A DNA stretch of 64,000 nucleotides, taken from positions 4,093,001-4,157,000 of the forward strand of contig NZ_CP033367.1 of the NCBI RefSeq assembly GCF_013170845.1. Reading direction: 5' to 3'. This document shows positions 42,295-45,248 of the stretch, in pieces; position 1 is the first letter of the stretch; the number at the start of each line of letters is the position of its first letter. The translations under genes were made by a program, and so were the position numbers. The notes beneath the pieces were generated by a model. The model was given only the letters and a program-made list of their open reading frames with translations, ran no database searches and was not told the origin of the DNA. This DNA comes from Mesorhizobium loti R88b. Its GTDB lineage: Bacteria > Pseudomonadota > Alphaproteobacteria > Rhizobiales > Rhizobiaceae.

Positions 42295-42387
42295 GCGCGC
42301 CGGAATAATCGCTTGCCGCCGCGATTGCAATTGTCGCGCGGCGTTAACCGGAACGTCTGATCTGGAAAGCCTGCCCTGAAAACAACA

Positions 42388-42499
42388 ACACCCGCCGGGG
42401 GAGGAGGTCCGGCGGGTGTCGTTTTTGGGGTCGACCCTCGGGAGGAGGTGAAGGCCGACCGTATTCGTCATCGCCGGGGAGGAGGTCGGCTTTGACGAA
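42388..42499 (-). ncRNA. Cuckoo-like (CcsR-type) sRNA unit C: three anti-Shine-Dalgarno hairpins
   Basis: Read on the minus strand this unit has hairpins at 42499-42464 (outer stem TTCGTCA, inner stem GCCG), 42460-42429 (8 bp, one mismatch) and 42419-42388 (11-bp perfect stem ACACCCGCCGG with its complement). Each loop carries CCTCCTCCC. The last hairpin is followed by TGTTGTTTTC, which could act as the terminator of the whole array. Loops of this type define the CcsR/cuckoo RNAs of Rhodobacter. Confidence 0.78.
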
Positions 42500-42566
42500 A
42501 TCTCTTTCGCGTTTTGAAAAGGGGCGAGACCCTTTTGGAGCAAAATTCGTTTGCCCCGGGGAAACA

Positions 42567-42678
42567 GCGCCCGCCGCGGGAGGAGGTGCGGCGGGCGCCG
42601 TTTTGGTGGCCAACCCTCGGGAGGAGGTGAAGGTCGGACCTATTCGTCACCGCCGGGGAGGAGGTCGGCTTTGACGAA
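42567..42678 (-). ncRNA. Cuckoo-like (CcsR-type) sRNA unit B: three anti-Shine-Dalgarno hairpins
   Basis: The middle copy of the array, offset 179 bp from unit C. Hairpins on the minus strand lie at 42678-42643 (TTCGTCA stem), 42640-42605 (imperfect) and 42598-42567 (11-bp perfect stem GCGCCCGCCGC with its complement). All three loops carry CCTCCTCCC. Units B and C share long identical stretches, indicating recent tandem duplication. The spacer after the unit contains an AAAAGGG...CCCTTTT hairpin (42517-42536). Confidence 0.78.
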
Positions 42679-42744
42679 ATCTCTTTCGCGTTTTGAAAAG
42701 GGGCGAAACCCTTTTGAGCAAATTTATTTTGCTCCGGGGAACAA

Positions 42745-42855
42745 CGCCCGCCGCGGGAGGAGGTGCGGCGGGCGCCGTTTTGGTGGTCAACCCTCGGGAG
42801 GAGGATAAGGGCTGACCGTTCGCTGGAGGTCGGGGAGGAGGTCGACCCCAGCGAA
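42745..42855 (-). ncRNA. Cuckoo-like (CcsR-type) sRNA unit A: three anti-Shine-Dalgarno hairpins
   Basis: The first unit after the DUF1127 genes, starting only 23 bp beyond the second DUF1127 stop. Hairpins on the minus strand are at 42855-42819 (stems TTCGCTGG and GGTCG nested), 42817-42785 (GGTCA and CCCT nested) and 42774-42745 (10-bp perfect CGCCCGCCGC stem). Each loop has CCTCCTCCC. Unit A is the most diverged of the three. The spacer towards unit B has an AAAAGGG...CCCTTTT hairpin at 42696-42715. Confidence 0.78.
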
Positions 42856-42878
42856 ATTCTGTTAGATCGCCATCCTGA

Positions 42879-43019
42879 TTAGAGGGCTTGCCGGGCGATG
42901 ATCTTGATTTCGTCGCGGACGATACCGAGATCATGCAGCTGACGGTTCGAAAGGCGACCCAGCTCGGTAACCGTCTCGCGATAAACGCGCCAGTTACGAT
43001 AGTTGCGGATCAGGTTCAT
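42879..43019 (-). CDS. DUF1127 small Arg-rich protein (second of pair)
   Basis: A 46-residue protein beginning MNLIRNYRNWRVYRET, with the DUF1127 core LGRLSNRQLHDLGIVRDEI and a basic N-terminus. DUF1127 proteins bind RNA in some alphaproteobacteria; CcaF1 of Rhodobacter is cotranscribed with CcsR RNAs and acts in their processing and stability. The same order is seen here, with the RNA array starting 23 bp downstream. The gene was identified by reading the minus strand directly. Confidence 0.88.
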   Translation of the reverse strand: MNLIRNYRNWRVYRETVTELGRLSNRQLHDLGIVRDEIKIIARQAL

Positions 43020-43068
43020 TGTCGTTCTCTTTTTCAAAACTTGTTCGGACCATTCGCGGCCCGAAGAA

Positions 43069-43209
43069 TTAGACCGCCTTGCGAGCGACGTAAGGAATGT
43101 CGCTGCGGCTGATGCCGAGGTCGGTCAGTTCACGGTTGCTCAGGCGGCTCAGCTCGGACACGGTGTCCCTGTAGCGGCGCCAGTTGCGGTAGTTGCGGAT
43201 CAGGTTCAT
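43069..43209 (-). CDS. DUF1127 small Arg-rich protein (first of pair)
   Basis: A 46-residue paralogue (MNLIRNYRNWRRYRDT, core LSRLSNRELTDLGISRSDI). The first nine codons are nearly identical in DNA to the second copy, as expected after tandem duplication. It is the promoter-proximal gene of a likely transcript that runs through both DUF1127 genes and the nine-hairpin array. DUF1127 proteins in Agrobacterium affect phosphate, carbon and RNA turnover. Confidence 0.88.
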   Translation of the reverse strand: MNLIRNYRNWRRYRDTVSELSRLSNRELTDLGISRSDIPYVARKAV

Positions 43210-43264
43210 GGTAGTTCTCGTTTCGTCTTTCTTGCGGATCATTCCGTTTGTGTACGAACCATAA

Positions 43265-43278
43265 ATAGGCGGGCCTAT
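43265..43278. promoter_or_regulatory. Inverted repeat in the DUF1127 promoter region
   Basis: ATAGGC-GG-GCCTAT lies about 55 bp upstream of the first DUF1127 start codon, inside an AT-rich stretch. It could be an operator or part of a promoter for the DUF1127/sRNA transcript. In Rhodobacter the corresponding transcript depends on heat-shock sigma factors; no clear RpoH-type -35 was recognised here. Confidence 0.35.
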
Positions 43279-43445
43279 ATCGATTTAAAAGCGCTATGGC
43301 TGCATGGCAGCAATGCAAATTGTGCAATGCAACATTAACGCGCCTTCACGGACCTGACATAAAGAAGCCAGAATCAGAAAGTGCCGTGACGTCAACGGTT
43401 TGGCTGGTTCGGCTGAAAAAAGACCAGACTGGGGGGACACGCGGA

Positions 43446-45165: not shown

Positions 45166-45248
45166 TGGTGCGGGTAGAGGGACTCGAACCCCCACGATCT
45201 CTCGCCAGAACCTAAATCTGGTGCGTCTACCAGTTCCGCCATACCCGC
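45166..45248 (-). tRNA. tRNA-Leu (anticodon TAG)
   Basis: On the minus strand the 83-nt sequence starts GCGGGTATGGCGGAACTGG, has anticodon loop ATTTAGG (anticodon TAG), a short variable arm (GCGAGAGATCGT), the T-arm GGTTCGAGTCC, and an encoded CCA. Confidence 0.93.

Follow-up and report, generated by a model that had tools for sequence, protein, structure and literature searches.

What is the row of nine hairpins that follows two short DUF1127 genes on the minus strand of the window (the whole 64-kb stretch of DNA analysed here), and under which regulator could it stand? A sequence-only reading had described nine hairpins in three triplets 3' of two 46-residue DUF1127 genes, and the open reading frames, Pfam, the motif count and the folds all agreed with this description. 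DUF1127 gene a (46 aa) is located at 43069-43209 and gene b (46 aa) at 42879-43019, both on the minus strand and both including the stop codon. Their Pfam scores were 63.1 and 56.0 bits, respectively (cut-off 23.3), and both are kept in relatives. Between 42399 and 42841 the minus strand carries nine copies of CCTCCTCCC, and the rest of the window has none; 0.61 copies were expected, and nine were reached in none of 100 shuffles of the 64-kb window. Every copy lies in the loop of a hairpin, and the nine hairpins form three units of three. Unit 1 (42737-42863, hairpins in the fold at 42819-42855, 42785-42817 and 42740-42779), unit 2 (42560-42686) and unit 3 (42381-42507) are all on the minus strand and about 127 nt long. 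The first loops of consecutive units start 177 and then 179 bp apart, in line with the spacing of about 179 bp given before, and the first stem starts 23 nt past the stop codon of the second DUF1127 gene, which is also the maximum distance that had been named.

Folding of the minus strand, which had been proposed as a check, gave three hairpins per unit. The minimum-energy folds of units 1, 2 and 3 had z-scores of -7.93, -6.66 and -6.46, with equal stability in 0 of 200 shuffles for each unit, and the fold of the complete array had a z-score of -12.11. In the minimum-energy folds the third stems have 15, 16 and 15 pairs with G-U pairs counted; the perfect stem of 10-11 bp described earlier is the core of this hairpin, not its full length. 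In the whole-array fold, both linkers between the units can form extra hairpins. The linker between units 1 and 2 (42687-42736, minus strand) is a candidate processing region, and the function of the linker between units 2 and 3 (42508-42559, minus strand), which is related to the first, is likewise putative.

All three units matched the Rfam family ar14 (RF02344), with 95.4 bits for unit 1 (42739-42859), 89 bits for unit 2 (42562-42683) and 90.4 bits for unit 3 (42383-42504), at a curated cut-off of 58.8 bits. This covariance-model search had also been suggested with the sequence-only reading, whose assignment to the CcsR or 'cuckoo' class linked to DUF1127 is borne out by scores well over the cut-off. 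The alpha-r14 RNAs (NfeR1, 'cuckoo') are described, in the passages cited, as having three hairpins, CCUCCUCCC in the loops, variable stems and several copies per genome (PMC3927594, PMC7143759, PMC10746234), and a locus that combines DUF1127 with CcsR-like RNAs goes by the name CIN1 in the cited part of PMC10253847. Both descriptions apply here: there are three hairpins per unit with CCUCCUCCC unpaired in each loop, and a short DUF1127 gene lies immediately upstream on the same strand. The two hairpins per RNA of Rhodobacter CcsR (PMC3927594, section 2.7) do not apply, as each unit has three. The locus is a further member of the already described alpha-r14 family in a CIN1-type arrangement. 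The three hairpins had been understood as an expansion of the two-hairpin CcsR form. Since three hairpins are the norm of alpha-r14 as described in rhizobia, the locus is no such expansion and this explanation was dropped; SmelA099, an RNA related to alpha-r14, even has four (PMC3927594). New here are a probable regulator and a probable mode of growth, together with the correction that three hairpins per RNA are the norm.

The array resembles several described systems, each in a different way. NfeR1 of Sinorhizobium meliloti, which belongs to RF02344, has the same three hairpins, CCUCCUCCC loops, variable stems and several genomic copies, and nfeR1 has an LsrB-type site at a comparable distance upstream. 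However, nfeR1 is described with a promoter of its own, whereas the array consists of three tandem copies behind two DUF1127 genes. SmelA075 and SmelA099 (PMC3927594, 2011), with three or four hairpins per RNA, share the loop motif and the presence of several genomic copies, but DUF1127 is absent from section 2.7 of their description and has 0 occurrences in its main text. The CcsR1-4/CcaF1 locus of Rhodobacter sphaeroides (CIN1) has the same order, a DUF1127 gene followed by tandem RNAs with anti-Shine-Dalgarno (aSD) loops. It differs in having two hairpins per RNA, one DUF1127 protein of 71 aa and an RpoHI/HII promoter, against three hairpins per RNA, two proteins of 46 aa and an LsrB/VtlR-like block in the locus studied here. 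Finally, the VtlR-activated genes BAB1_0914, BAB2_0512 and atu1667, the last of which is called an orthologue of the other two (cited passages of PMC12595884 and PMC7486931), share with our locus a short DUF1127-type gene and a related upstream box; the passages on these genes in the same two papers do not mention downstream aSD RNAs.

In the genome to which the window belongs (7.2 Mb, one contig), RF02344 had six matches, three in the array and three solitary ones away from DUF1127 genes, and there were six DUF1127 matches besides the pair at the array. In two of the solitary copies (L004 and L005) the first loop is CTACTCCTCCC and not the full motif.

The arrangement is widespread in the genus. 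With DUF1127 detected by a profile made from the two proteins of the window and one round of matches, two DUF1127 genes were found directly 5' of an ar14 array at the best locus of 22 of the 24 other Mesorhizobium genomes, 25-32 and 211-224 bp before the first loop. The paired genes had been regarded as a special trait, and these counts rule out that they are an oddity of this one genome. In one of the two exceptions (G012) the best match was unlinked and two further ar14 matches lay on another contig; in the other (G023) a single unlinked match fell under the cut-off. With the window included, 17 of 23 arrays have two units, five have three and one has four, the count for L032 being a minimum as this array stops at a contig end. 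The flanking trmFO and DUF2157 genes are retained in the relatives compared. Over 929 bp the DNA of the array has 90.1% identity with Mesorhizobium sophorae (L109), the best-scoring named genome among the compared loci, and TrmFO is 94.7% identical to TrmFO of the same strain. In 120 genomes drawn from the order, 41 had an ar14 match, 19 of them above the cut-off. Eight of 12 hand-chosen linked loci reached the RF02344 cut-off; since the four that did not (L092, L102, L123 and L136) have 7-10 loop motifs each, RF02344 under-reports arrays of the Rhodobacterales type.

Covariation was analysed in 61 units with three intact loops (59 distinct) from 30 paired-gene arrays, with L054 and L116 left out; the structure used was the one folded for unit 3, plus two pairs. 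In this alignment 94.3% of the cells were paired and 21 of 39 pairs had changed on both sides, and neither value was reached in any of 500 shuffles, which ignore the relatedness of the units. Structures slid by 1-3 columns gave 31-50% pairing and at most six double-changed pairs. Pairing was lowest in stem 1 (87.6%), where three pairs are broken in 25, 29 and 29 of the 59 sequences; these failures coincide with differences between first-type and last-type units. Tandem near-identical copies, with more copies elsewhere in the genome, are also what a mobile or REP-like repeat devoid of RNA function offers as an account of the array, but its probability is practically negligible, given the strong covariation and the fact that the array has the same two neighbours (trmFO and the DUF2157 gene) in all relatives that were compared.

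The mean departure from the majority letter was lowest in loops (0.022), higher in stems (0.135) and highest elsewhere (0.217) in 53 units from 23 arrays. These 53 units are part of 65 matches of a covariance model itself built from intact-loop units, and part of the loop value comes from three L026 units that are shifted in the alignment although their motif is intact. The loops, which the sequence-only reading had called unchanging, are thus the least variable part among relatives, and they do not drift like the sequence outside loops and stems. This bears on the idea that the hairpins are a structured 3' end and nothing else, stabilising and terminating the DUF1127 mRNA with no role in trans. 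Such a role would suit hairpins that lie directly 3' of a DUF1127 gene and of which the last is terminator-like. A stabiliser needs stems, however, and not a fixed loop, whereas in these units the loops vary least and the stems change with compensation; three copies of the RNA in the same genome also lie away from any DUF1127 gene. We regard a structured 3' end as distinctly improbable, and a trans-acting RNA as the preferred reading.

The units of an array are not equivalent. Ten diagnostic columns, each at least 80% consistent per group, part first units from last units. In the window, unit 1 is of the first type and unit 3 of the last type, while the middle unit 2 is last-type in its 5' part and first-type in its 3' part. 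The same polarity, last-type letters 5' and first-type letters 3', was found in all seven middle units of six arrays. The switch is single and clean in four of them (window, L016, L019 and L025); L015 and the two identical middle units of L026 have an extra first-type letter at the second diagnostic column. The second unit of L032, at the contig end, was grouped as last though it is of the middle type. The exchange of ACACCCGCCGG and GCGCCCGCCGC in a stem, noted earlier as a change between units, is real but tied to unit position: the last-type third hairpin, with ACACCCGCCGG, is the final one in 23 of 23 arrays with an intact example, and seven of the 30 arrays have none. The second units of L022 and L024 have just two exact loop motifs.

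The 14 nt after the stem hold 8.52 T in 23 last-type units against 4.71 in 38 others. In the window, the third hairpin of unit 3 (42384-42423, core 42388-42419, minus strand) enters such a T-rich tail and is the likely terminator; a terminator scan of the minus strand did not flag it, because the loop limit of the scan was 8 nt. As the last-type unit is always final and has a T-rich tail, the first and the terminating units look fixed, with copies inserted between them. Judged by their diagnostic columns, the middle units look like last-type/first-type chimeras, as from unequal crossing-over, and gene conversion could be another source of the pattern. The array would then have grown by unequal crossing-over in which the last unit of one copy recombined with the first unit of a second copy, and each such gain would give more RNAs per transcript. 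Fixed ends with a variable middle would be a possible way to alter the dose of the sRNA and leave promoter and terminator undisturbed.

Upstream of the DUF1127 genes, the block TTGCATTGCACAATTTGCATTGCTGCCATGC is nearly invariant in 29 aligned upstream regions. In the window the conserved block from this alignment, TTGCATTGCACAATTTGCATTGCTGCCATGCA, is located at 43301-43332 on the minus strand. It contains TGCA-N6-GCAT (43313-43326), the form of the LsrB site reported for nfeR1 in the cited part of PMC10746234, and CATTGCTGCCATGCA (43301-43315), which agrees at 13 of 15 positions with the VtlR box reported in the cited part of PMC12595884. A generic sigma-70 scan found no promoter upstream of the DUF1127 genes. 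By eye, in 29 upstream regions and with the signature CTTAGAC-N17-CTATAT (given in PMC10746234, as cited) for comparison, a promoter is predicted on the minus strand at 43263-43291, with CTTTTAA as -35 (43285-43291), a 16-nt spacer and CTATTT as -10 (43263-43268), and a start near 43256. The LsrB/VtlR-like site begins at about -70 relative to this start predicted by eye; at nfeR1 the LsrB site is reported at -72 to -60 (same passages of PMC10746234).

When up to 3 mismatches were allowed, a 22-base segment of the block matched the own genome at this locus only. TGCA-N6-GCAT alone is no rarer than chance, with 2 occurrences in the window against 3.78 expected. In named genomes, a VtlR-like box with at most 3 mismatches was present at 33 of 40 DUF1127-linked arrays (from 38 loci, of which 6 are Mesorhizobium; the arrays are not independent) and in 22 of 1056 random windows from the same loci, which lie away from the arrays, are probably mostly coding and form a lenient control. 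TTGTGCA or TGCACAA was present at 31 of the 40 arrays against 21 of the 1056 windows, and an earlier, smaller control for the box had given 4 of 395. Over all 64 linked arrays, the box was found at 56, where 1.9 were expected from an order-1 Markov model. Seven of the 40 lacked it at this threshold. At the same threshold 30 of 61 unlinked arrays also had it, by which we rejected the idea that the box is exclusive to DUF1127-linked arrays; its presence at unlinked arrays is consistent with LsrB control of nfeR1.

LsrB binds and activates nfeR1 (PMC10746234), VtlR activates DUF1127 genes (PMC12595884, PMC7486931), and LsrB/VtlR is reported to respond to oxidative stress (PMC10746234), all according to the passages cited. 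A matching gene is present: in the own genome a LysR gene adjoins trxB, the setting described for vtlR in the cited part of PMC12595884. Each of 10 genomes tested, the own genome included, had one LysR homologue. In three other rhizobial genomes it was 69-96% identical and next to trxB, so that with the own genome trxB adjacency was found in 4 of 4. In all six non-rhizobial genomes the best homologue was 39-43% identical and trxB was absent within about 1.5 kb. As LsrB is called unique to Rhizobiales (PMC11975290, cited passage) and the homologues elsewhere are distant, control by LsrB cannot be extended to non-rhizobial genomes. The upstream block points to LsrB/VtlR, unlike the RpoHI/HII promoter given for ccaF1-CcsR of Rhodobacter sphaeroides in the published passages.

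In the Rhodobacterales the box, if a LysR protein reads it at all, should be read by a different one. In L102, L123, L136 and L147 the stretch 5' of DUF1127 has TGCATGGCAGCATTG and then ATTGTGCA, which form a box of two parts that resembles the rhizobial one but has the opposite orientation. In the genomes of L102 and L136, trxB was not found beside the best LysR homologue. A general rule, in which DUF1127-linked aSD arrays are direct targets of LysR activators (LsrB/VtlR in Rhizobiales, a distant LysR protein in Rhodobacterales), can be put forward only tentatively, at somewhat less than an even chance. If it is true, the published activation of DUF1127 genes by VtlR often also turns on overlooked RNAs that block ribosome-binding sites, and the dose of this RNA battery depends on how many units unequal crossing-over has placed between the first and the terminating one, both of them fixed. 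The shared box would join two published lines, the one from VtlR/LsrB to DUF1127 genes and nfeR1, and the one on 'cuckoo' RNAs behind DUF1127. In the literature searched, which lay mostly outside subscription papers, LsrB/VtlR activation was not joined to DUF1127-linked aSD RNAs, not even where two papers citing DUF1127 also bring up VtlR/LsrB, and within the same coverage no literature on Mesorhizobium and DUF1127 was found.

For the locus in the window, we consider it fairly likely that a transcript activated by LsrB/VtlR gives rise to both DUF1127 proteins and, after processing, to RNAs that pair with ribosome-binding sites and so repress mRNAs. A LysR activator of the LsrB/VtlR type would probably turn the unit on. 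A single transcript from about 43256 would encode the two DUF1127 proteins, followed by the three tandem ar14 RNAs, and would terminate at the final hairpin of unit 3. By analogy with described relatives, RNases would cut it into three-hairpin RNAs of about 120 nt, and the DUF1127 proteins perhaps assist the cutting, as for CcaF1. The exposed CCUCCUCCC loops may then, again as in relatives, pair with the G-rich ribosome-binding sites of several mRNAs and repress their translation. ABC-transporter genes would probably be among those repressed. In the own genome GGGAGGAGG was found 3-10 nt before an ATG seven times, against two for a backwards control. The three of these seven candidate target genes that were scanned with Pfam encode parts of ABC transporters, which weakly suggests ABC-transporter genes among the targets. 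In the cited part of PMC10746234, the loops of LsrB-activated NfeR1 repress ntrB and two transporter mRNAs.

The nine loops could also act on a protein, as the sponge idea of the sequence-only reading had allowed, titrating Hfq, DUF1127 or another RNA-binding protein, with the number of hairpins as capacity. The many identical loops and the variable number of units are compatible with this, as are published passages in which CcaF1 binds RNA and aids CcsR maturation. Against it, the loop sequence complements a consensus ribosome-binding site, and the tested action of alpha-r14 is, in the passages cited above, base pairing of redundant loops with translation-start regions. A protein sponge therefore appears unlikely. 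As the same nine letters are found in all nine loops, the motif itself confers no specificity, and the loops might be thought to imitate the 16S rRNA end that carries the anti-Shine-Dalgarno sequence and to lower the translation of G-rich leaders broadly, with no specific targets. The effects published for alpha-r14, as far as the cited passages go, hit defined mRNAs, several of them of transporters, and such a global decoy is in our view highly improbable; pairing with the start regions of particular mRNAs is the reading retained.

The part played by the two DUF1127 proteins may differ from that sketched above. In published passages CcaF1 is reported to be an RNA-binding protein and to contribute, like RNase E, to the maturation of the CcsR RNAs. 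In Agrobacterium, DUF1127 proteins work through PhoR, and YjiS of Salmonella showed no binding to RNA. A processing role for the proteins of the array may be wrong because of this action through PhoR and the result for YjiS.

The window also contains three tRNA genes (324-395, 1385-1455 and 45169-45248). The remaining solitary ar14 copy of the own genome (L006, G000:C1:6454398-6454513) lies about 100 bp 3' of a phasin gene (Pfam Phasin_2). Inspection by eye showed this phasin tail also 5' of the loops in L063, L064, L067, L078, L099, L126, L128 and L152. With a phasin gene placed before solitary ar14 copies, a second pairing of a protein gene with these RNAs may exist.
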